IMG/VR virus record: IMGVR_UViG_3300036761_000167
Coordinates: 1 to 21,095 of that record
DNA: 21,095 nucleotides
Source of the DNA: a virus
Strand: one strand, 5' to 3'
Shown here: positions 2,560 through 15,313 of the stretch, piece by piece
How the letters are laid out: each line of letters opens with the position of its first letter
Numbering within the stretch: the stretch's first letter is position 1
Notes under the pieces: model-generated
Seen by the model: only the letters and a program-made list of their open reading frames with translations
Told to the model about the DNA's origin: nothing
The model's database searches: none
Translations under genes and position numbers: made by a program

Positions 2560-3789
2560 CTAGAGCTGAGACGTGTGCTCGATGCGGCGGTACCGCGCGG
2601 GCGTGACACCAGTTGCGTTGGTGCCTTCTCCCATGATGACCGCCCCGAACATCCCCTTCCAGCCAATCTGAGTGAGCTGGTGCAGAGGGTCCGTGGTCCC
2701 ACCCGGCTGGGTGAGGTAGGTCTGGATGGAGCCCCAGTCACCGAAGGCGTACGCCTCCGGGCCGAAGATGACCGCGTTGAGCACGTCGTTCACGACGTTC
2801 ATCGTCAGGACAGTGGTGTCCGACGTGATGTCGATGGCCGCACCGTTCAGCGTCGCGCTGAGCTTGAACACGAGGTTCGAGGTCGGCTGGACGATGAAGT
2901 AGGTGCTGCCCGCCGTCAGGCCAGCGCCACCAGTGATGGTGGCAATCTTGACGCGGTTGCCCGCGACAAGGTTGGTCGGCGCCGTGATGGTGACGTTGTC
3001 GGTCGCAGCGATGGCCGCAGCGCCGACGTTGGTGACGAGCGGCCCAAGGACCGCAGCGAACGAGACCGAAGCAGGCGACTCGATGAACCGAACCCCGGCG
3101 TACCGGCCGACCTCGCCCGTGAACAGGGCTTGGCTGCCAGCGTAACGCTGGGCGTCAATCCACCCACCCACCGCCGTATCGCTTTCGAGGTCGAAGGTCG
3201 AACCCGGGTGCACGATGGCGCGATAGGTGCCGTCCGCGAAGGTCGGGACAGCGGCTGCCTTCAGCCGGGCGACGGTCAGTTTGACCAGCGCGCCGGTAAG
3301 AGGCGAGTTGCTGTTGATGGTCGCGCGGGAAGTCCCCGACGCATACGTGACCTGCGCCCCAGCGGACAGAACCTCGGCGACCCGACGGTCGGCCGTGGCA
3401 ATGGCGTTGCGCGCAATCCGGTCAGCGGCCTCGCTCAGGAGGTCGAAAGGCGACTCCATGAGGCCGATGTCCGAGAGCTTGATGACACGACCGGCCTGAT
3501 TGGCAGAGAATTCCTCGTAGCCAATCGCGAGGTCTTCCGTCGTGTTCGGCGCGCCTTCATTGAGCCACGGGAGGGTGCCCGGGTTCGGCGTGCCAGCGAC
3601 GACAGACATGTCGGCGATGTTGATGAACCGCATGACGTTGTTCGTGCCCTTGACGAACGACGCCTCACGGAAGTTGCCCGGAAGAATGTGCGGCAGCGGT
3701 GCGCGCAGCAGTTCCTCCAGACGCTTGTTGACCAGAGCGACAACCGTCTGGTTGAAGTTCGTAGTCGCGGTAGAGATGATGGTGCCCAT
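2560..3789 (-). CDS. major capsid protein, N4-gp56 family
   Basis: A 409-residue shell protein with an HK97-type fold. Features of the N4-gp56 family: an N-terminal helix with RLEELLRAPLPHILPG (about 23-38), LSDIGLMESPFDLLSEAADRIARN (split here as about 105-128), YRAIVHPGSTFDL (about 189-201), GGWIDAQRYAG (about 208-218) and GEVGRYAGVRFIES (about 225-238). The C-terminus has VIFGPEAYAFGDWGS (about 340-354). Between residues 248 and 338 an extra beta-rich module interrupts what is normally a short link, probably forming a surface domain. It is preceded by a scaffold-like gene and followed by a strong terminator, as expected for an abundant protein. The start is an ATG whose nearest purine-rich site, GGAGAAAG, is rather far (about 13-17 bases). 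Confidence 0.9.
   Translation of the reverse strand: MGTIISTATTNFNQTVVALVNKRLEELLRAPLPHILPGNFREASFVKGTNNVMRFINIADMSVVAGTPNPGTLPWLNEGAPNTTEDLAIGYEEFSANQAGRVIKLSDIGLMESPFDLLSEAADRIARNAIATADRRVAEVLSAGAQVTYASGTSRATINSNSPLTGALVKLTVARLKAAAVPTFADGTYRAIVHPGSTFDLESDTAVGGWIDAQRYAGSQALFTGEVGRYAGVRFIESPASVSFAAVLGPLVTNVGAAAIAATDNVTITAPTNLVAGNRVKIATITGGAGLTAGSTYFIVQPTSNLVFKLSATLNGAAIDITSDTTVLTMNVVNDVLNAVIFGPEAYAFGDWGSIQTYLTQPGGTTDPLHQLTQIGWKGMFGAVIMGEGTNATGVTPARYRRIEHTSQL
2776..3048 (-). repeat. beta module inserted in the major capsid protein
   Basis: Codes residues about 248-338 of the capsid protein. NVTITAPTNLVAGNRVKIAT, ITGGAGLTAGSTYFIV and VFKLSATLNGAAID align with AGDRVYF, GGTGLNLNTTYFV and AFSVSLTSGGAVID in the Dit-like protein. 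A likely decoration or adhesion domain on the capsid surface. Confidence 0.75.
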
Positions 3790-3824: not shown

Positions 3825-4379
3825 CTAGAGCCAGTCTGGTGTCATGGTCTTCAGTCGAGCCTTGATGTCCTCAGACGTGTCGGGCTTGACCGTAGTACCA
3901 ACGGCACTTCCGCTGGCGGCGCGATTGCTCGCGTTGGGGTTCTGTGGAGTCGGGGGTTCTCCCTCGACAGGGGTCTCGGCGAACATGGCCTCGAAGTATG
4001 CGAGCCGGACCTCATCGGTGATTTCCGGGAGCTGGGCTCGTGCGTTCGGGTACTTGACGTCGAGGATTTTTCCGTTGGCTGTGACCTCCGCCTGCGAGGC
4101 TCGCTTCTCAGCGGCTTCCAAACGGGCTTGAAGGGTGGCGATGTCGGCTGCCTTGGTCTGGTCTGCGTCACGGTCGGCCGCCTCGTACTTGGCGAGCTTG
4201 GCCTGTGCATCCGTGAGTTGACGAGCGGCTTCCTGACGAGCTGCCTCTGCTCCTGCCTGACGCTTCCGTGCGAGGGCGAGCTGGTCCACCGCTGGTGTGG
4301 CCGTCGGGTCCGGGGTCTCGGTAGAGCCCTCGCCTTCTGGCGACGTTGCGCTGGTCGCGCCGTCGATAAGGTCTGTCAT
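3825..4379 (-). CDS. capsid scaffolding-like protein
   Basis: A 184-residue acidic, low-complexity protein: a Thr/Pro/Glu-rich N-terminus (about 1-35), a long helix rich in Ala, Gln, Lys and Glu (about 38-105, for example RLEAAEKRASQAEVTANG) able to form a coiled coil, and a short C-terminal helix IKARLKTMTPDWL. Size, coiled coil and position immediately before the capsid gene are typical of phage scaffolding proteins, which guide shell assembly and then leave. I chose the ATG giving MTDLIDGATS because an AGAAAGAGAG tract lies 13 bases upstream. An in-frame ATG 12 codons earlier, inside the ATTGCAAT motif, lacks a ribosome site. Confidence 0.75.
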   Translation of the reverse strand: MTDLIDGATSATSPEGEGSTETPDPTATPAVDQLALARKRQAGAEAARQEAARQLTDAQAKLAKYEAADRDADQTKAADIATLQARLEAAEKRASQAEVTANGKILDVKYPNARAQLPEITDEVRLAYFEAMFAETPVEGEPPTPQNPNASNRAASGSAVGTTVKPDTSEDIKARLKTMTPDWL

Positions 4380-4430
4380 TGGGGAAACACTACTCTCTTT
4401 CTGCGGACATTGCAATAGCCCGCGTTACTG
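4380..4430 (-). other. short intergenic gap before scaffold gene
   Basis: About 50 bases between the stop of the giant protein and the scaffold start. It holds an AGAAAGAGAG ribosome-site candidate and one ATTGCAAT (4409-4416), the only one of the 20 motif copies lying outside a chosen coding region. No convincing promoter is seen. Confidence 0.5.
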
Positions 4431-7400
4431 TCACTTCGCCGTGACGAAAAGTTCCTTCAGCCGAGCGAGGTCATCCGCAAGGATGGGCGCCAGTGCTGCC
4501 GCAGGAGTTGGTCCTGAGATGCTGGAGTCTACACCGCTCAGCGCAGCGCCACCAGCCGGGGCGCCGCCAGCCGGGGCGGGCAGGTTGATGAGGGATTGCA
4601 ATGCGGGCTGCTGAGCCTGCTCGTTCTGGAGTGACTGCACGGCACCCGGGATTTCCTCCACCGTGTTGACGACCTGTGCCACCCAACGCTGCGGGCTGAT
4701 GGTGGCCAGCTCGTCCCTCCACATGGCGCCGGGGTCCTTGCCGTTGAAGATGTCGCGCACGAGCGGAGACATGCGGGCCTCGTGCGAGGACCACGGCAGC
4801 GACGGCGTCAGATAGTCCGCGAGGAAGGCCCCGGAGGAGTTGTCCACGGCGCTCATCTTCTTGTCGAAGTCCGTGTCGTACTCGCGCTGCACGGCGATGG
4901 CGCGCTGGACGTCGTTGATGATGTATGTGGCGGCGTACGGGTTCTTCGCGAGGAACTTCACGCTCTCCGGCAGGACCTTGCCCCACATGTAGCTCGACGG
5001 GTAGAGGCCGAACAGCGGGTGGTTCAGGCTGCGCTCCAGCACGGACCGCTTGGTCTGCATCTCGGCCAGCCGGAAGACGTCCTGCTGAGCGTCTTGGATT
5101 TTGTTCTTCAGCAGCGAGATGACCAGCCCGTGGGTTCGATTGAAATTGACGGCGTTCGTCGTCGGGACCTTCTCAACGAGGTCGCGGAGGTCGCTGCGGG
5201 TGCGGGCACCCAGCTCTGCGCCGATGTTGTCCTGCACCCACTTCGAGAGCGCCTGCATGTAGCCCTCGACCTCGGGGTTCGGATGCGGCTTGCCGGAGAC
5301 GATGCGCTCCTTCACCATCTGGGGGAAGTTGTTGCCGAAGAAATTGTCATAGGGGTCGGCCTCCATCGGATGCCACACGCCATCCACGCCCAGCATCTCC
5401 GTCTTCTCGGGCGGGATGTGGCCGACGGTCAGGCGGTCCTCGCCGCCGATGTGGCGCCCGGGGCCAATCTGGCCGGGGACGTCAGCCTCCTTGACGCGGA
5501 AGATGGCCTCGCCCTCGTTACGGTTGTAGAACGAGGTCGGCTTGCCGGTGGTCACGCCGATGTGGTCAGGGATGCCGCCAGCGGCAGCGCCCGGCTTCTC
5601 GACGCGGTAGACGTAGCCCGGCTCGACCTTGAAGGACTTGGGCAGGGCAGCGACGGCCGGGCGCGGTGCGGCGCCGGGGGCCGACTTCGGCACGACGTAC
5701 TCAAACTGGGCGGGCTCGATGTGCGGGTTCACGGCGCCCGTGGCCTTCTCGAACTCCTGCATCAGGGTCTCCTGCGCGGAGACGTCAAGGTGCGAGCGCC
5801 ACACCTTGGTCCACTCCTCCAAGGGCTGCGACGCCTTCCCGGCCCGCAGGAACTCGATGAGCTGGCCCATGTGCGTGTCAAGGCCCTTGCCGCCGATGTT
5901 CGAGCCCATCACGCCGGACATGTACTCCCACGGGTCCATGCCCCGGTTCTTAGCCTCCATTGCAATGATGTCCTGCGCCTCCGCAGCGAAGTGGGGGCTG
6001 ATGTCCAGCCCGCCCTCGTCAATCGGCTTGGCCAGTCGCGCCCAATAGTTGTCCCACGTGTCGCCGAAGTAGTCCAGCGCCCGCTTGATGACGTCCGGGT
6101 GCAGGTGCATCTTGGTGCGAAGCTGCTCCTCCAGCCACGGGATGTCGTGCTCGCCCTTGACCAGCATGAAGGACCCGTTGACCTTCTCGACGTGGCCGGT
6201 GACGTCACGGCGGAGCGCGGCGCCGTCGGCATAGCCTGACCCAACCTCCTGCGCGAGGTCGTCAGGATGGAAGGACTGGATTTCGCCGATGCTGTTGGGC
6301 ACGGCCCACTCGCCTTCGCGGAGGAGCATGGTGTGGTCAAGCGTGCCGTCAGGATTGACGCGCGTGTGGCGCCAGCCGGACAGCATGTCCTGCGTGTACT
6401 GGAGGCCGACCTCATCCCGGGTGAGGTTCCGCCCGGCCAGCTCGTTGTAGTGCATTGTAATCTCGTCGATGTTGGTCCTGAAGCGGTCGGCCTCGGCCAG
6501 CATCTCGGCTCGCATCTGCGGGTCCGCAGCCTGCTCAGCGACAGTCTTCAGGTTCTCCAGTGCGCCCTCAACGATGTCGCCCATGCGCGCGTGCAGCATG
6601 TTCGTCATGTTGTTGGCGATGATGGCGTCAGGCGCACGAGCGATTTGGGTCAGCTTGTTCGCGTCGAGGCCCGCCTGCTGGAACCCGGAGCGGATGCCCT
6701 CGGTGAAGTTAGAGTGGGTGGCGAACTCGGGCATGTCCATGCTGAAGTGGCGCCCGAGGCCAGTCCGGCCCATGTTCTCGGTGATGGCCCGCAGGGTGGC
6801 GTTGGCCTCGGACAGAGCGCCCTTGCCAACCGGGATGATGCCCTCGATGACGGAGTAGTACGGCGCGTCGGTGACGCGCTGGATGACGAACATCGGATTG
6901 AAGACGTACCGCATCTTGTTGTAGACGCCGACCGTCAACTGGCCCGACACGTTGCTGCCATCTTGGATGGGGCCGGGCATGTGGCGAAGCGCAACGCGTG
7001 CCTTCTGGGAGAGCGCAGAGGTCACTCCCATGATGCGGAAGTCGCCCTCGGCCGCCTGAAGCAGATGGTCCATGACAACGTGAACGTCGAGCGCGGCCCC
7101 GTTCGCCATCCTGAAGTCGATGGGGATGATGTCGTGGATTTCCTTCCACAGGTTCTCGGGCTTGATGCCGCGCACATTGGAATAGTCGAGCCCAGCAACC
7201 TCCTTGGCGCGCTTCATGATTGCCGCCGAGATGGGCTTGGGGATGCCCGCGTCGAACGTGCTGCGCTCGAACCGCTGGTCGATGTTCTTGACGAGGCGCT
7301 GCCCCGTCACGCCATCGCGGAGCGTGTTGATGTACGCCTCAACGGACTCGACGGGCTTGGTCAGGCTCTCGGCCTTGGACGGTCCGATGATTTGCCCGAG

Positions 7401-10400
7401 GACGTTGCGGGTCGTGTCGCTGAACCGCTGGCGCCCGAACGGAACGGCGTCCACGTTGTGGCTGATGGTCGGCGCACGGTCGATGGTGTAGAGGCCGGTG
7501 GACGCGTCACGCTTGAAGCCCCACGCGACCTCCTCCTTCGGGCGAAAGCCGATTTTCCACAGCGGCGTCTTGGTCGCCTCCATGACATCGGGAGCGCCCA
7601 GCTTGACGTCGCTGAAGTGGGCGGTCTCGGGCGGGTTGCCCTTGTTACCCGGAATTTCAATGCCATCGTAGCCCTGCGCCTCCAGTTGCGCGCGGAGCTT
7701 CTGCGCCTCGACCTTCAGCTCCTCGGCCCGCGCTGCCCACTGCTCGGGCGGCAGGGCCTTGCCCGCCTTGTCCTTGTTGGGGGCTTGGAAGTAGTCGAAC
7801 TTCTTGCGGGTCAGGGCAAACGGGTTCTTCAGCTCGGCCTCGGCGCCGTAGACCTTCCCGGCGGTGCCCGCGTACCGCTCAGCGGCGGGGCGGCTGGTGG
7901 TCGTGAAGGCACCGAACTGACTGGTGGCGTTGTCGAACTGGCGGGCGGCCGGGTCAGCGGATGCGGAGGACAGCCCGGTGTCGGGGCTGCCGTGGAACCG
8001 CGTCGGGGCCTTGGGCATCCCGGGGTGCTCCATGTAGACGACGTCAGGCGTGCCGCCCTTCCAGCCGTCCGGCGCGTAGGCCGGGTTCCACGGCTCACGG
8101 CGCGTGACCTTGAACCCGCCCTTGGCGTACAACTCGGGGAGGCGCCCGGTCTCATCGAACGCGTCACCCTTGGTGGCGCCCAGTGCGTGGAAGTGCGGGA
8201 CCAGCTTCTCGATGACGCCCTTCTCGGTCCCGGCGTTGAAGACGGACACGAGGTCGCCGTCCGCCTTGATGGCGAACCCGGCCTTGCCGTCAGCCGACAG
8301 CCAGAGCTTCATGTGGCGATACTCGCCCTTCGGGTAGCGGTAGACGGTCTCGCCGACCGAACGGCCGTTCGACTTGACGACCTTCTGCGCCTTGGTGACG
8401 GCCGCAAAGAACTTCTCGTGCGAGACCGGGGTGAACCCTGCCTGCGCGAGGGCCTGCTGGGCGTCGGCCACGGCGGCCTTCTCGCGGGCGACCAGCTCGG
8501 CGGCGGTCACGACACGCTGCTCGCCAGTGGTGGAGTTGCGGGCCATGAAGTCACGCAGCGGCTTCAGGGCCGGATGGGCCAGCTCGGCCGCTGTCGCGCT
8601 CCGGGAGATGGCGCCGCGCTCAATCTCCTTCTCCAGCTCCTTGACCAGCGTTTCGAGCTGGTCCTTGCCGCCGGTCGCGTGACCGATGGTGGCGATGTGC
8701 CCGTACCGCATGGTCAGGTTGTTCCACTCCTGCGTGGCCGTGGCGATGGGGTCCTCGATGGACTTCGCCTCGTTCTTCAGTGCACCACGGATGTTGGCTA
8801 CGATGGCCTCTGCGGTGGCGCGGTCCAGCGTCTCAGGCGACATGAGGACAGCGTCCCGCAGGGTGAGCGTGCCGTCGTACATGGCTTGGTTGATGGCGGC
8901 GCGGGCCTTCTCGAACCCGACCTCGGCGCGCTTGTAGGTGATAGCGTGCAGAGCGGACCGCTGGTTGAACGACATGGTCGTCAGGCGCTTCTCCCAGTAG
9001 GGCACGTCCTTCCCAAAGACAGAGGCCATGCGACCTGCGAGGTTGACCTCCTCCTCAGCCGTAAAGGTGTTCTTCATGATGCGCTGCATGTGGTCAGTCA
9101 GCTCGGTGACGGCGTCACGCCCGGCGTTCTGGGCGAGCACGCCGGAGACGTCATCCGGCGACGTGCGAGCAAGGTGCTCGGCAAGCCCCTCATTGAGCAT
9201 GTCGCGGGCGTAGGTCATCGTGACCATCTCGTCGGCCTTGTCCATGGCGTAGGTGGCCATCGCGCTGTCAATCTCAGTGGTGAGCCCGTGCTCACGAGCC
9301 AGCGCCCGGATATCCTTGATGGTCTGCGGCCCGTGGGAGCGCATCAGCGACTCGACGGCGACGCCGTTCTTCAGGTCGGTGACGGCCCGGGCGACGGACG
9401 AGGGCTTGTAGACGGCGAGCGGGTCGAACAGGCCGCGCGTGATACGGAAGATGGGGCCACTGACCTCGCCCTTCTGGACGGTGGCCACCACGACGGCCAG
9501 CTTCTCAGCGGTGGTCGTGGCGAGGTCCAGCTTCTCGGCCATCGAGGCGCCCTCGCCAGCCATTGTAATCAGGCGCGTGCCCGTGGTCAGTCCCAGCTTG
9601 GAGATGGACCCGGCGCCGAGGGTGGCGTAAGTCAGTGGGTCGAGCGCGGCGGAACCGATGATTTGCCCGACCGGGTTGCGGGTGACGCCCTGACCGTGGC
9701 TGATGATGTAGTCGTTGGCGTGCTGTCGGGACCAGAGGCCCGACTTCAGCGCGTTGGCGGCCTTGGTCTCGACATCGGAGACCTCCATCCCGGCGTCCAG
9801 ACGGACAGTGGACTCGCCGACGCGGTCGAGCTTCGTGTTGATGTTCTTGTCAATCCAGTCCTGCGCCTGCTGGTTGGTCCACTTGCCGGACGTGACGTTC
9901 TCGACGGCGAACTTCTCGTAGTCGTTGAACGAGTAGGGGGTCGAGGACCCGACGTGCGACATGTACTTGTTGGGGTTGTCGCGGATGTCGAGGAGCCGGG
10001 TGATGTTGGTGGACCCGCCTTCGCCCGGCTTGTGGCCGGAGTAGTACGGGTCGAGCAGGCTGACGTTGCCCGCGATGCCCTGCACCGTGTTGGAGCCGAG
10101 GCCGAGGAAGCCCTTGATGGCGCCACTGAGGGCACCACCCAGAGAGCCGACCCCGGTGCGGCCCATCGCCAGCTCCGGCGTCCCGCCGAGGAAGCTGTCG
10201 TGCATGGTGTCATCCAGCAACTTCTGATACTCGATATTGAAATCGGCCTTCAGGTTGCCACCGCCCAGCACGTCGGCGTCCGCGCGGGTCTTCAGGACCA
10301 GCCAGTCGCCGTACATGGCGGGGTCCTGCGTCTTCAGGATGGAGCCGATGTGGTTGAAGGTGTCGTCGGCCCCGCCCGGGACCCAGCCCAGCGGGATGTG

Positions 10401-10847
10401 CGACAGTACGGTTGCGCCAGCCTCGAACGGGGCGACGGCCAGTGAGCCCTGAAGGTGAAACGCCTCGCCTGCCATTCCAATTGCCTGTCCAAGCTGCCGC
10501 CCGCCCGCCACACCGCCGAGGAGCGAGCCATTGCCCTGCCCGAACAGCGCGTGGCCGAGGGAGTCGAGCCCGTGGCCGAACCTGTCCCATGGCGCCATGG
10601 CGTTGATTTCGGCCTGCGTGGCCTCGTGGTAGGAGCCGTCCGGGTTGATGGAGCCCTTGGGGTACGCGCCCGTCGCGGAGGAGTTGCCGAGTAGGTTTGG
10701 CACTCCAGCTCCGAACGACGCGCCGCCAGCCGGGGCAGGTGCGGCCAGAGAACCCGCCGATGGGGTCTGCGGCAGGGGCGGGGCCGTGGTCGTGGGCGTG
10801 GACGGAGTCGGCGAATTCGCCGGGCCTAGCTTGGTGTAATCAAGCAT
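4431..10847 (-). CDS. giant polyvalent virion protein with ADP-ribosyltransferase-like domain
   Basis: A 2138-residue protein, by far the largest gene here (6.4 kb). The N-terminus (about 1-50) is Pro/Thr/Ala/Gly-rich, followed by glycine-rich helices. Residues about 945-1080 read as an ART domain of the polyvalent-protein kind: RFHGSPD, then FGAFTTTSRPAAERYAG, VYGAEAELKNPF and GYDGIEIPG, matching the His / Tyr-with-Ala-x-x-Tyr-Ala / ELKNPF / GYDG spacing of that fold. A second possible ART-like stretch lies near 1744-1825 (YVYRVEKPG to HIPPEKTEMLG). The rest is mostly helical with no motif I recognise. It directly abuts the 832-residue gene (TAG then ATG) and lies between portal and scaffold, the usual place of MuF-type ejected proteins. 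Ejection into the host is inference; modification targets are unknown. Confidence 0.7.
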   Translation of the reverse strand: MLDYTKLGPANSPTPSTPTTTAPPLPQTPSAGSLAAPAPAGGASFGAGVPNLLGNSSATGAYPKGSINPDGSYHEATQAEINAMAPWDRFGHGLDSLGHALFGQGNGSLLGGVAGGRQLGQAIGMAGEAFHLQGSLAVAPFEAGATVLSHIPLGWVPGGADDTFNHIGSILKTQDPAMYGDWLVLKTRADADVLGGGNLKADFNIEYQKLLDDTMHDSFLGGTPELAMGRTGVGSLGGALSGAIKGFLGLGSNTVQGIAGNVSLLDPYYSGHKPGEGGSTNITRLLDIRDNPNKYMSHVGSSTPYSFNDYEKFAVENVTSGKWTNQQAQDWIDKNINTKLDRVGESTVRLDAGMEVSDVETKAANALKSGLWSRQHANDYIISHGQGVTRNPVGQIIGSAALDPLTYATLGAGSISKLGLTTGTRLITMAGEGASMAEKLDLATTTAEKLAVVVATVQKGEVSGPIFRITRGLFDPLAVYKPSSVARAVTDLKNGVAVESLMRSHGPQTIKDIRALAREHGLTTEIDSAMATYAMDKADEMVTMTYARDMLNEGLAEHLARTSPDDVSGVLAQNAGRDAVTELTDHMQRIMKNTFTAEEEVNLAGRMASVFGKDVPYWEKRLTTMSFNQRSALHAITYKRAEVGFEKARAAINQAMYDGTLTLRDAVLMSPETLDRATAEAIVANIRGALKNEAKSIEDPIATATQEWNNLTMRYGHIATIGHATGGKDQLETLVKELEKEIERGAISRSATAAELAHPALKPLRDFMARNSTTGEQRVVTAAELVAREKAAVADAQQALAQAGFTPVSHEKFFAAVTKAQKVVKSNGRSVGETVYRYPKGEYRHMKLWLSADGKAGFAIKADGDLVSVFNAGTEKGVIEKLVPHFHALGATKGDAFDETGRLPELYAKGGFKVTRREPWNPAYAPDGWKGGTPDVVYMEHPGMPKAPTRFHGSPDTGLSSASADPAARQFDNATSQFGAFTTTSRPAAERYAGTAGKVYGAEAELKNPFALTRKKFDYFQAPNKDKAGKALPPEQWAARAEELKVEAQKLRAQLEAQGYDGIEIPGNKGNPPETAHFSDVKLGAPDVMEATKTPLWKIGFRPKEEVAWGFKRDASTGLYTIDRAPTISHNVDAVPFGRQRFSDTTRNVLGQIIGPSKAESLTKPVESVEAYINTLRDGVTGQRLVKNIDQRFERSTFDAGIPKPISAAIMKRAKEVAGLDYSNVRGIKPENLWKEIHDIIPIDFRMANGAALDVHVVMDHLLQAAEGDFRIMGVTSALSQKARVALRHMPGPIQDGSNVSGQLTVGVYNKMRYVFNPMFVIQRVTDAPYYSVIEGIIPVGKGALSEANATLRAITENMGRTGLGRHFSMDMPEFATHSNFTEGIRSGFQQAGLDANKLTQIARAPDAIIANNMTNMLHARMGDIVEGALENLKTVAEQAADPQMRAEMLAEADRFRTNIDEITMHYNELAGRNLTRDEVGLQYTQDMLSGWRHTRVNPDGTLDHTMLLREGEWAVPNSIGEIQSFHPDDLAQEVGSGYADGAALRRDVTGHVEKVNGSFMLVKGEHDIPWLEEQLRTKMHLHPDVIKRALDYFGDTWDNYWARLAKPIDEGGLDISPHFAAEAQDIIAMEAKNRGMDPWEYMSGVMGSNIGGKGLDTHMGQLIEFLRAGKASQPLEEWTKVWRSHLDVSAQETLMQEFEKATGAVNPHIEPAQFEYVVPKSAPGAAPRPAVAALPKSFKVEPGYVYRVEKPGAAAGGIPDHIGVTTGKPTSFYNRNEGEAIFRVKEADVPGQIGPGRHIGGEDRLTVGHIPPEKTEMLGVDGVWHPMEADPYDNFFGNNFPQMVKERIVSGKPHPNPEVEGYMQALSKWVQDNIGAELGARTRSDLRDLVEKVPTTNAVNFNRTHGLVISLLKNKIQDAQQDVFRLAEMQTKRSVLERSLNHPLFGLYPSSYMWGKVLPESVKFLAKNPYAATYIINDVQRAIAVQREYDTDFDKKMSAVDNSSGAFLADYLTPSLPWSSHEARMSPLVRDIFNGKDPGAMWRDELATISPQRWVAQVVNTVEEIPGAVQSLQNEQAQQPALQSLINLPAPAGGAPAGGAALSGVDSSISGPTPAAALAPILADDLARLKELFVTAK
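4561..4580 (-). repeat. 20-base near repeat, C-terminal copy
   Basis: GCGCCGCCAGCCGGGGCGGG (plus strand) matches 10720-10739 at 19 of 20 bases. Both encode a PAPAGG segment, here near the C-terminus of the giant protein, with a further partial unit just beside it giving PAPAGGAPAGG. Confidence 0.7.
10720..10739 (-). repeat. 20-base near repeat, N-terminal copy
   Basis: GCGCCGCCAGCCGGGGCAGG (plus strand), the partner of 4561-4580. It encodes APAPAGGA near residue 40 of the giant protein. The two copies bracket almost the whole gene in direct orientation. Confidence 0.7.
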
Positions 10848-13346
10848 CTAACGAGCACCCGAATGATAATCCTTCGAGACGTCGTATGGCGTCGGGGCCG
10901 CAGTCGGGGCGGGTGTAGGCGTGACCGGCAGGTTGGTCGGCGTCGGCGTCGGTGTCGGCGTAACGGCTGTCGGCGTTGGAGTCGGCATCGGGCCAATCGG
11001 GCTCGGCTGCGCTGGAGGGGCACCCACGCCGGGCAGTGTACCAGCATTGGGACCTGCGGCGGGACCCTGACCTTGGAAGTGCGCCGCACCCTGCATGTTC
11101 TTCAGATAGGACGGCAGGCCCGGGACAACGAGAGTCTGTCCGCCGAAGTTGATGGTGGTTGGCTTGTCGTAGGCGCCCGGGGCGGTGGTGGTGCCCGGGT
11201 ACTGGAGGTCGGCCCGCAGCGCGGGGTTCGTGTTGCTCGCGCGCACGGCGTTGTCCAAGCTGTTCTCGTGCGCGGTCGTAACGACCTTCCACGCATCAGC
11301 GATGCGCGGGTCGTACGGGTCCTTGATGCCGAGACCGTTCATCGTCTGCGCGACGAACTGCTGCTGGAACGCCGGGTCATTGGCGAAGGCGGTCACTTGG
11401 TCGAGGGTCTGCGTCGCGGCCGTGGCCTTGACCGACGCGGCCAGAGGCGACGCGAAGGTGGTGCCCGGGACGAACCCGGCCTGAATACGGGACTGGCTGT
11501 ACCCCTGCGACTGCGCCCCCTGCACGGGGATGTCCGTCGGCGTGTCGGTGGACGCGATGACGTGGCCCTTGTCGTCCAGCGTGTTCTGCGTGACGGTCTG
11601 GGTGAACTTGTCGTCCTTGTAGGTCAGCGTGGTGGTCCCGATGACGTGGCCGTTGGCGTCGAGCGAGTTCTGCTTGACGCTGGCGCCGCCGGAGAAGTCG
11701 CCAGCATCGCGCTGTGCCTTCAACTGAGCGGCGAGCTGCGCGCCTGCGACGAGCGGGTTCCCGTCCTTGTCCTTCAGCCCGGCGGCTGCGACGGCGGGGT
11801 CCGCAATCTGCGCGGCGGGCGGCGAGACGTAGACGTCGCCCTTGTTGTCAATCTGGGTCGTCGCGCCATCCGCCAGCGGCGAGATGATGGACCACTGGGT
11901 CTTGCCCGTGTTGTCCTGATACGACCAGAGTGAAATGTCCTTGCCGCCGACCTTGTACGAAATCTGGTAGCCCGCCAGCCGAGGCGAAGCGCCCGGGTTG
12001 TTCGGGTCGGTGACGTACACGGAGTGGCCCGGCATCATGGCCATCACGGCCTTGCCGTCGGAGCCCGGGACCATGACGCCCGAGGCGGTGGGAGGGATGG
12101 CGCCAGCCGGGACGATGCCCAGCGCGCCCTGCCCGGTCGGGTCGTAGTTCCCGGCGTTGTCCACAGGAGCGTAGGCGAACCCAAGCGGGTTGGTCGCCAT
12201 TTCAAGAGCCTTCTGCTGGAGGACGGAGACGACCATTGCCGCCTCTGGGCTCACACCCGGGCGCGACAGCATGGACGAGCCGAAGGACGGGGCGTCCCCG
12301 GCATCTTGCCCCTGAAGGCGCAGCGCGTCGGCGGCAATCATGTCCTTCGAGCCTTGGTCGATGCCCGGGGTCTGGGCAAGCGTGCCGAGCTGCGTGGCGT
12401 AGATGTTGGACGCGTTCGTCTTGTCCATCTGGGAGGCGTTCGGGTCATTCATGACCTTCAGCCATGCGGTCTCGAAGTTGGTGTAGGACTCGGCGACCGG
12501 CCACACCTTCAAGTTCTGACCCCACGAGGCCATCGCGGACATGCCCTGCGCCGCATTGGCGTAGGCGGACACGAAGCCGCCCTTCTGCGCCTTGTCAGCG
12601 ATGAGGCTGTACCCGGCCACAGCGGACTTGATGTGCTGATTGAAATAGCCCTCGGTGAGCTGGCCGTCCCAGTGCGGGTCGCTTTTCTTGATGGTGTCGA
12701 GGAGCGCCCGGTACTTGTCCGGGTTCGCGTTGACGTCATTCGTCAACTGCGCCAGCAGCTCATCGCCATTGCCGGTGATGGACAGGCCCGTCGCCTTAGA
12801 CAGGTCGGACAGGGCGGTCGTCATCGCATCGCCGATTGCAATGTCGCTATTGGTGGTGTTGGTGACGAACGTGTTGAACGCGTCGGTCCGCGCCTTGTCG
12901 GCGTTCGCGTGGCTCTTGGCCTTCGCGCCCTCGATGAGCTGAGCCGCGTCCTTCTGGAGGGTGCGGTAGAACTCACTGTTCTTCGGGACCTTCTGTGCCC
13001 ACTTCAGGAAGAACTGCGCGTACGCGTTGTCGGACATCTTGCCCTGCACGTGCAGGACGTCAGCCTTCGACTGGGCGATGCCGTACTGAAGCTGCATGAT
13101 TTGGTTCTTGGCCTGCTCGTAGGTCGGGTCGCCCGGGTCCAGCCCCTCCTCCCGGGTCTTCCAGTACGCGAGCGCCATCTCGTCGGTGACTTTCTTCCCC
13201 TCGAAGGTGCCACCATTCCGCCACGCATCCATGATGAGCGAGTCCCTCTTTGCCACGTACTCGCGAGCGAGCGCGACGATTTGACCCGTGACATTCGGGG
13301 CTACCCGTGGCTGGAGGCCGAACGAGCCCCTACGACTCCGGGCCAT
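10848..13346 (-). CDS. 832-residue uncharacterised virion-associated protein
   Basis: I do not recognise a family. The N-terminal 400 residues are mostly helical (for example EFYRTLQKDAAQLIEGAKAK and KARTDAFNTFVTNT). The middle (about 400-600) is beta-rich with GHSVYVTDPNNPG and a Trp/Tyr-rich ISLWSYQDNTGKTQWS. A short internal duplication (QNSLDANGHVIGTT and QNTLDDKGHVIAST) falls near 560-600. The last 60 residues are a Pro/Thr tail of PTPTPT repeats. The start ATG overlaps the portal stop (TAATG) with AGGAAG just upstream, so it is translationally coupled to the portal. Position between portal and the giant protein suggests an internal or ejected head protein, or a portal-linked connector; this is inference only. 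Confidence 0.65.
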   Translation of the reverse strand: MARSRRGSFGLQPRVAPNVTGQIVALAREYVAKRDSLIMDAWRNGGTFEGKKVTDEMALAYWKTREEGLDPGDPTYEQAKNQIMQLQYGIAQSKADVLHVQGKMSDNAYAQFFLKWAQKVPKNSEFYRTLQKDAAQLIEGAKAKSHANADKARTDAFNTFVTNTTNSDIAIGDAMTTALSDLSKATGLSITGNGDELLAQLTNDVNANPDKYRALLDTIKKSDPHWDGQLTEGYFNQHIKSAVAGYSLIADKAQKGGFVSAYANAAQGMSAMASWGQNLKVWPVAESYTNFETAWLKVMNDPNASQMDKTNASNIYATQLGTLAQTPGIDQGSKDMIAADALRLQGQDAGDAPSFGSSMLSRPGVSPEAAMVVSVLQQKALEMATNPLGFAYAPVDNAGNYDPTGQGALGIVPAGAIPPTASGVMVPGSDGKAVMAMMPGHSVYVTDPNNPGASPRLAGYQISYKVGGKDISLWSYQDNTGKTQWSIISPLADGATTQIDNKGDVYVSPPAAQIADPAVAAAGLKDKDGNPLVAGAQLAAQLKAQRDAGDFSGGASVKQNSLDANGHVIGTTTLTYKDDKFTQTVTQNTLDDKGHVIASTDTPTDIPVQGAQSQGYSQSRIQAGFVPGTTFASPLAASVKATAATQTLDQVTAFANDPAFQQQFVAQTMNGLGIKDPYDPRIADAWKVVTTAHENSLDNAVRASNTNPALRADLQYPGTTTAPGAYDKPTTINFGGQTLVVPGLPSYLKNMQGAAHFQGQGPAAGPNAGTLPGVGAPPAQPSPIGPMPTPTPTAVTPTPTPTPTNLPVTPTPAPTAAPTPYDVSKDYHSGAR
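10936..10987 (-). repeat. Pro-Thr coding microrepeat
   Basis: Repeated GTCGGC/GTCGGT hexamers on the plus strand encode the PTPTPTPT tail of the 832-residue protein. Likely a flexible linker and prone to length change by slippage. Confidence 0.8.
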
Positions 13347-15313
13347 TACTTCCTACCGTACTTCGTGTTGTTCAGGATACGGCCGGAGAGCTTGCCACCT
13401 GCAATCATCGACTGGACCTGCGTGGACTGCGGGCCATTGGCCTGCGCGGTCGCACCTGCGGGACCCTGTGCGAAGGGCGAAGACTGGGCTCCGGCCACGT
13501 CCGGCGTCTGCGGAACCATGCCGTCTGCGGCCTGCCCGCCACCACCGAGGGGGTTCCCACCCGGGGTAGCCTGCCCAAGTGCAGCCTGAAGGTCGGCAGC
13601 GCCGGAGGCGGCCTGACCCTGAGCCTGCGCCTGCACGCCCTGCGGCGCCTGAGCGTTGGCCGCATTCAGCGCCGCCATGAGCTGGACCATGAGGTTGACT
13701 CGGTCCGGCCACAGCGTAGCGTCGGTGGACTCGCGGCGGATGATGTTCTGCTCCTGCTCCGGGTCATCGACACCGACGGCATCCATGCCTCGGGCCTGCG
13801 ACCAGAGCTTGGCGTTGACGAGGCTGGCGGCGCGGTTCGCGGTCTCCATCTCGTCGCGCGGGGAGAGCGACGGGTCCTGAATGTCAAGTCGCGGCATCCC
13901 ATTAGCGATGACGCGCTTGATGAACTGGCCGTTCTCGCCCTTCATGTTGGCCCACACCTTGCAGACCAGCTCCCACGTCTTGCGGTCCCACTCGTAGAAC
14001 AGCAGTCGGCGCATTGCAATCCGGGACTCGTAGTTGGCGACCAGCGCGTTGATGGCCTTCGAGCTGTTCAGGACCGCGCTCGGGGCGAGCCCCAGCAGCA
14101 GGTCATTCAGGCCCGAGATGATGGCCATTTCCCGGTCGATGCGCCCGAGGAACTGCTCCAATTGGAATTCGGCGATGTACGGAGCGATGGACTCGAACCT
14201 GTTGCCGGGTCCGGGGCTCACCGTCTGGTTGAGGATTGGCTTGACGTTCGCAGCACCGCGAGCTGGGGCGTTCTCGCCCGTGATTTGCCAGTAATCGCCA
14301 GCGGTGGCCTTCTGTATCATCTGCGCGCCCGCCGTGATGCGGGTCATCTTCTCGCGGATGAGCTGTTCCATATCGTGCAGCTCGGAACGTCCGGTTGGGG
14401 TGCCGGGAACGAACGTATTGAACAGCGGAACGTACGGCACGACGCCGTTGTAGTAGGCGTATTTCTCGTCGCGGACGACCTCGTTGCCGACGACGATGCA
14501 GTTCCACGTCTCCATCTTGGCGGGCGAGCCCTTCTTCCCGGGCTTCGTGACCTTGCGGTACCAGTAGTCCCAGACCTCGACGCGGGCCGGACCCCAGTTC
14601 AGCTCCGGGCGGGGGATGTCGGCGTACGCGGAGTCGATTGCTCCCGTCACCCACGGGACTATCGTCCCATCGGCCATGGACTTCGCGGTGATTTCGACGC
14701 TGTACCGCTCCATGGCGGACTTCGGGTCGATGAGCGTGACCTGCGCGGCCCACTCCAGCGTGTCGTAATTGTCATCCTTGAAGCCGAGGTACAGGTTGCG
14801 CGGGTTGATGATGACCTCGGCGCACGGGTACGCCTTGTCAAGGTCCGGGTAGACGAACGAGGCGGTTCGGCCGTACAGGCCCTTCACCGTGGCGCCCTTG
14901 TGGCGCTTCAACTGCCAGCCCTCGTCCACCTTCCATGACTCCCGGACTCGTTCAAGGGCGTTCGCGTTGTCGCGACCCTCCTCGGAGTCCTCGATGGCAA
15001 CGATGTTCTCGATGGGCTCGACCGCCTGAAGGGCGGCTGGGACCTCGACGTAGACCTGCGGGCTGTTCAGCGAGACGTGCGAGCGTCCATCGACCTTTAG
15101 GTTGGGGTCGTCGGGCCACAAATCGGCTCCGAACTGGGTGAAGGTGGTCGAATAGAACAAAGCGTCGTATCGCTTGCACTCGTCCGCGAAGGCGTCGTGT
15201 TCCAGCTTGATGCCCTGAATACGGCCCTGAAGCGCGCGTTGCAGCTCCATCTCGGACTTATCGCCCTCAGACAGGCCAATAACGAGCGTCAGGTCTTGGT
15301 ACTTGGGCTCCAC
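13346..15313 (-). CDS. portal protein
   Basis: A 655-residue portal (head-to-tail connector) protein, the dodecameric ring through which DNA is packed and released. Seen: an N-terminal helical region, DKAYPCAEVIINPRNLYLGF (about 158-177), a beta-rich middle with VEVWDYWYRKV and WNCIVVGNEVVRDEKY, PYVPLFNTFVPGTPTGRSEL, then the long helix region with GRSELHDMEQLIREKMTRIT and ISGLNDLLLGLAPSAVLNSSKAI split across about 300-430. The gly/gln/ala-rich C-terminus (about 555-640) is disordered. Size and layout fit podovirus- and P22-like portals. It begins at GTG 48 bases after the large terminase stop, with no strong ribosome site, and its stop overlaps the next start. Assignment rests on gene order plus these features. 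Confidence 0.85.
   Translation of the reverse strand: MEPKYQDLTLVIGLSEGDKSEMELQRALQGRIQGIKLEHDAFADECKRYDALFYSTTFTQFGADLWPDDPNLKVDGRSHVSLNSPQVYVEVPAALQAVEPIENIVAIEDSEEGRDNANALERVRESWKVDEGWQLKRHKGATVKGLYGRTASFVYPDLDKAYPCAEVIINPRNLYLGFKDDNYDTLEWAAQVTLIDPKSAMERYSVEITAKSMADGTIVPWVTGAIDSAYADIPRPELNWGPARVEVWDYWYRKVTKPGKKGSPAKMETWNCIVVGNEVVRDEKYAYYNGVVPYVPLFNTFVPGTPTGRSELHDMEQLIREKMTRITAGAQMIQKATAGDYWQITGENAPARGAANVKPILNQTVSPGPGNRFESIAPYIAEFQLEQFLGRIDREMAIISGLNDLLLGLAPSAVLNSSKAINALVANYESRIAMRRLLFYEWDRKTWELVCKVWANMKGENGQFIKRVIANGMPRLDIQDPSLSPRDEMETANRAASLVNAKLWSQARGMDAVGVDDPEQEQNIIRRESTDATLWPDRVNLMVQLMAALNAANAQAPQGVQAQAQGQAASGAADLQAALGQATPGGNPLGGGGQAADGMVPQTPDVAGAQSSPFAQGPAGATAQANGPQSTQVQSMIAGGKLSGRILNNTKYGRK

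Follow-up and report, generated by a model that had tools for sequence, protein, structure and literature searches.

A putative polyvalent protein with a three-part backbone and two variable cargo bays encoded between the portal and scaffold genes of an uncultivated phage

Locus and architecture of P0001

The window analysed here is the whole 21,095-nucleotide stretch of the IMG/VR virus record IMGVR_UViG_3300036761_000167 (positions 1 to 21,095), and the subject of the analysis is a large protein, P0001, encoded among its head genes. The main genes of this virus window all lie on the minus strand and comprise primase and helicase, a nuclease-like gene, terminase, portal, a gene for an 832-amino acid protein, P0001, scaffold, capsid, and tail-type genes. 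P0001 is an open reading frame (ORF) with an ATG start at positions 4431..10847 (stop codon included), encoding 2138 amino acids. A preliminary description made from the DNA letters had proposed this ORF, and it proved to be real. Relatives were collected by two scans, which gave about 13 further contigs (mostly fragments, several loci being parts of one contig), and P0001 was kept in them at 36–84% identity per segment with the same neighbours. The order portal, 832-amino acid gene, P0001, scaffold, and capsid was retained wherever the contigs of the relatives reach. The location between portal and scaffold/capsid given in the preliminary description was found to be conserved, with the correction that the 832-amino acid gene (10848..13346) separates the portal from P0001.

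Three parts of P0001 were kept among the relatives, and the stretches between them varied. The kept parts, all on the minus strand, are backbone segment 1 (residues 1–776, 8520..10847, 36–73% identity to relatives), backbone segment 2 (residues 1095–1704, 5736..7565, 51–78%), and backbone segment 3 (residues 1834–2138, 4434..5348, 52–84%). Between them lie, on the same strand, cargo bay A (residues 777–1094, 7566..8519), which holds a GNAT acetyltransferase-fold domain and an ADP-ribosyltransferase (ART) domain, and cargo bay B (residues 1705–1834, 5346..5735), which holds a module designated 'YVYR'. Backbone segment 1 contained no Pfam domain above the cut-off, and no LPD, MuF, or RNA-polymerase module was detected in the backbone.

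The content of bay A varied from the GNAT domain alone, with the ART absent (L002 to L004), through the GNAT domain with about 745 amino acids (L100), to other sequence of about 684 (L103), 1043 (L104), or 134 (L105) amino acids; in L106 the bay was empty and its two backbone segments were contiguous. Bay B held a 'YVYR' module of about 100 amino acids in some relatives and longer, unrelated sequence in others (L003, L006, L104, and L105), and the 'YVYR' module of P0001 gave no family match. A 'YRAIS' module was seen in either bay, namely bay A in L100 and L104 and bay B in L003 and L006. By this comparison of relatives, the bays are shown here to be swappable on one backbone, and P0001 is best read as a polyvalent protein composed of a conserved three-part backbone and two cargo bays with contents differing among relatives. 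Two traits of polyvalent proteins were found in it, namely a large polypeptide that combines more than one domain of effector type (GNAT-fold domain, ART, and bay B module) and a virion-gene context (portal and capsid neighbours). Together with the ART-PolyVal match given below, these traits support well the analogy with polyvalent proteins drawn in the preliminary description.

The large bay inserts of the relatives were located at L100 5528–7840, L103 5717–7804, L104 4397–7564, and L105 7379–9586, and the pieces of them that were tested gave no family match. Several of the large inserts show HVTT, YHYT, or FHGS stretches that are ART-like by eye. The bay modules 'YRAIS', 'HVTT', and 'YVYR' were considered as ARTs on the same kind of likeness, and this was unsupported by Pfam and profile comparison. 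The 'FHGS' module of L100 was the only bay module to outscore 20 shuffles (22.3 versus a maximum of 16.0), which is suggestive only.

ART and GNAT-fold domains of cargo bay A

The ART-PolyVal-type domain covers residues 949–1091 (7575..8003, minus strand). The motif series noticed in the preliminary description was located at FHGSP 951, FGAFTT 978, AAERYAG 988, ELKNPF 1005, and GYDGIEI 1059. Residues 945–1095 alone matched PF18760 (ART-PolyVal) with E=3.4e-6 and 28.3 bits (cut-off, 31.2), and the domain was not picked up by a whole-protein Pfam scan of P0001. Two IMG/VR phages, L011 and L012, encode relatives of the domain with best-segment identities of 53% and 45%; that of L011, 48% identical over the aligned domain, matched PF18760 above the cut-off (37.3 bits). 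Neither phage has detectable similarity to the structural genes of the window, and in both the ART gene lies between the portal and the scaffold or capsid, an order read from translations in which the portal of L012 alone was profile-confirmed. H952, Y992, and E1074 were invariant in a six-sequence alignment including distant ART relatives, and are candidate catalytic residues of a putative H-Y-E-type ART.

The GNAT-fold and ART domains were modelled separately with AlphaFold2, and joint alignments of the two domains were misaligned. The ART model had a predicted local distance difference test score (pLDDT) of 88.1 and a predicted template modelling score (pTM) of 0.80, and its secondary-structure order was that of ARTs. 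A Foldseek search had in its top rows, at E 0.055 or weaker, the anti-CRISPR protein 6kyf together with MbcT and PARPs; 6kyf is AcrIF11, which also is an ADP-ribosyltransferase. In VIA-align, the best match (Z 9.3, root-mean-square deviation 3.7, 132 residues, 13% identity) was to residues 1419–1610 of a chain (PDB 9k3a_B) in the pre-ejectosome of cyanophage A4, a comparison that covers the ART domain of P0001, followed by PARPs (Z ~7) and diphtheria toxin (Z 6.6). The preliminary description had named structure prediction and Foldseek as the means of examining an ART fold, and the PDB matches of the model were indeed dominated by ARTs; the predicted ART fold of residues ~949–1091 is regarded as secure.

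No match to the ART domain was obtained by tblastn against phages and plasmids, and scans of genome contigs and a two-domain search of viral contigs likewise gave none. A PF18760 search over whole records was null even for the window; this first look was too coarse for the domain, and its null result is therefore not evidence of absence. The base composition of the ART module was ordinary for the P0001 gene and so gave no sign of recent import.

Residues 800–948 (8004..8450, minus strand) belong to the ~1900 residues in which the preliminary description had recognised no motif, a statement that no longer holds, because they contain a domain matching PHROG_2563 (1e-11). Its AlphaFold2 model (pLDDT 88.0, pTM 0.81) gave only GNAT-type acetyltransferases in the top rows of Foldseek (best E 9.7e-5) and reached Z 12.6 in VIA-align, so that on the model these residues adopt the GNAT fold. 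A relative of the domain was encoded in 122 viral stretches, and among the 80 of the 122 that were kept, nearly all lay within phage proteins of ~500–3300 amino acids. They included a protein of Limnohabitans phage DC33 (L007), which has a weakly gp14-like gene two genes upstream, and gp4 of Microbacterium phage Caron, a VG15/MuF-like minor capsid protein. Comparison of the family with Pfam and NCBIfam gave nothing meaningful. In a comparison with the acetyl-CoA loop R/Q-x-x-G-x-G/A, a Gly-containing loop was present that varied among family members, so that this domain may or may not be catalytic. The same GNAT-fold domain was also observed, with LPD22 and a weak match to GGDEF, in a 1902-amino acid protein at L016 2895–8600.

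Comparison with the closest relative and neighbouring genes

Exchange was examined by fourfold-site identity between the window and its closest relative, L003 (one phage pair). The identity was 0.97 for the portal, 0.97 for the scaffold, 0.99 for the capsid, and 0.99 for the next tail gene, against 0.78 for the 832-amino acid gene and 0.63 for P0001. Over the C-terminal ~140 residues of P0001 it was back at 0.93–1.00, and the 832-amino acid gene had 0.96 at one end and 1.00 at the other. As the drop affects synonymous sites and amino acids alike, recombination that brought in a diverged allele accounts for the pattern better than protein-level selection alone. The 832-amino acid gene and P0001 (4431–13346) thus appear, on these identities, to have been exchanged as one cassette.

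The portal protein (13346..15313) was assigned by phrog_156 (5.2e-6) and the major capsid protein (2560..3789) by phrog_1357 (1.4e-30); the probable scaffold protein (3825..4415), whose gene precedes the capsid gene, had a weak Phage_scaffold match (E=0.5). These genes, like that of the 832-amino acid protein, are on the minus strand. The 832-amino acid protein, conserved as a neighbour in the relatives, gave no match in a Pfam scan or a PDB search. A plus-strand ORF of 1392 amino acids (6267–10445) probably arises as a side effect of high G+C. A domain of ~75 amino acids, phrog_4711, was observed in the major capsid protein (residues 246–326) and in the next tail gene (1049–2473), and it recurs in tail-type proteins of the relatives L094 and L095. 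Among the tail genes, a 183-amino acid ORF (565–1116) has collagen-like Gly-X-X repeats.

Proposed role and alternative explanations

According to Iyer et al. (2017, PMC5512222), who described polyvalent proteins of phages and conjugative elements, ART is the commonest protein modifier of these proteins and GNAT occurs next to ART. ART-PolyVal has been known since that work, as have polyvalent proteins of mosaic composition and the pairing of ART with GNAT. P0001 resembles these proteins as a large multidomain protein encoded beside virion genes, with ART-PolyVal, a GNAT-fold neighbour, and variable domains. It differs from them in that its cargo stands at two fixed sites, that no LPD, MuF, or RNA-polymerase module was detected, and that it lies between portal and scaffold beside the 832-amino acid protein. 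A non-exhaustive search of the literature brought up no account of the backbone family, the layout with two bays, or the exchange of the cassette. The 3125-amino acid protein of phage DC33 and its kin (L007 4822–14199), a probable internal virion protein, also joins ART-PolyVal (7.9e-21) and the PHROG_2563 GNAT-fold domain; unlike P0001, it has the reverse domain order, LPD22, a backbone not detectably related, and a position after genes with weak nozzle-like and gp14-like matches, which lie upstream of it. This gp14-like gene is weakly T7 gp14-like, and the taxonomy line of the DC33 record, Inoviridae, is at odds with its genes. T4 Alt, a head-packaged ART, shares the idea of an ART delivered with DNA (PMC9503650), but, unlike P0001, does not carry several modules in this manner. 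Caron gp4 has the same GNAT-fold domain and lies between portal and scaffold, but is of 525 amino acids with a VG15/MuF-like N-terminus and no ART.

P0001 is probably an enzyme carrier, because its ART and GNAT-fold domain sit where relatives have other modules or none. We consider it fairly probable that P0001 carries effectors in the manner of polyvalent proteins, is produced along with the head proteins, is packaged, and reaches the host together with the DNA. Its packaging and ejection are what we infer here, as are its catalysis and its targets. The conserved backbone may act as an internal or ejection protein in partnership with the 832-amino acid neighbour, and P0001 would most likely be packaged in the head and enter the host cell with the DNA. 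Of the bay A cargo found here, the putative H-Y-E-type ART would use NAD+ to ADP-ribosylate a molecule of the host, and the GNAT-fold domain might be an acetylating enzyme with a host target, by which takeover may be favoured or defence blunted. Virion delivery is plausible, given the conserved place, the ART relatives by the portal, and the ART-like podophage pre-ejectosome segment. In published work, ARTs encoded near head genes (PMC9503650) and those in polyvalent proteins (PMC5512222) were inferred to be packaged and injected. The phage is probably short-tailed: no tape-measure or tail-tube gene was recognised in a nearly complete 48-kb relative and another relative had a weak SU10-type adaptor match, a gene content that fits without proving it.

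Several points weigh against this interpretation. As to homology with T7 gp16-like ejection proteins, the backbone matched no solved structure in a sequence search against PDB, and profile comparison did not link it to the other large proteins with a GNAT-fold domain (DC33-type); since it matches nothing known, the ejection role rests on position and analogy. Most tail genes of the 48-kb relative matched no family, which weakens the short-tail inference. The Foldseek E-values of the ART were weak and most VIA-align Z scores below 8. The catalytic residues of this ART family are given as H-Y-D in PMC5512222, whereas the invariant acidic residue here is E1074, with D1080 close by.

The same bay modules could instead be non-catalytic parts of a purely structural or ejection protein, serving for binding or capsid packing. 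In favour of this is that the ART finds its closest structural counterpart within a chain of a solved phage pre-ejectosome, as are the acetyl-CoA loop, not strictly conserved in the GNAT-fold family, and the keeping of the backbone while the bays vary. We hold it unlikely, in view of the invariance of H952, Y992, and E1074 even in distant ART relatives and of L106, whose lack of a bay A insert implies that the cargo is dispensable for assembly. P0001 might also be a late, unpackaged protein acting in the producing cell, e.g., by modifying phage or host proteins during assembly, like T4 ModA and ModB, which act after infection. In favour of this, protection of packaging components is raised in PMC9503650 as a possible role of such ARTs; nevertheless, the fixed place of P0001 between portal and scaffold across relatives, the equivalent location of related ART modules in other phages, and the GNAT-fold relatives inside ejection-type proteins make this explanation more unlikely still.

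The preliminary description had likened P0001, by its position, to MuF-type minor head proteins with effector domains; on this reading it would carry them at its C-terminus. Its position near the portal and the GNAT-fold domain of Caron gp4 are consistent with this, but no MuF or VG15 profile match was obtained in P0001 or P0002 under conditions in which VG15 was found in the control, Caron gp4, a result at profile level that leaves room for a very divergent version of the domain. Moreover, the effector modules are internal, followed by ~1050 amino acids of mostly conserved backbone, and the gene order is portal, 832-amino acid gene, P0001; the assignment is considered very improbable. A chance motif match without any ART, to which the sub-threshold Pfam score of the domain on its own and the null whole-protein scan might point, is strongly disfavoured to the point of being negligible, given relatives above the cut-off, a confident model, and ART matches in two aligners (Foldseek and VIA-align).

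Beyond the reading of P0001 as an effector carrier, a broader one is put forward tentatively, as possible rather than probable: a new family of ejected carriers with two standardised bays, in which phages with near-identical heads swap carrier and partner as a cassette, so that the injected enzymes change and the capsid stays constant. Phage enzymes that arrive with the DNA are active before phage gene expression and able to blunt defences at once. If the fixed backbone with two interchangeable bays is true, the cargo could be listed by comparing relatives. The apparent exchange of the cassette beside capsid genes that hardly changed suggests that the cargo is under selection, and the unassigned contents of the bays may include effector or anti-defence domains of new kinds.

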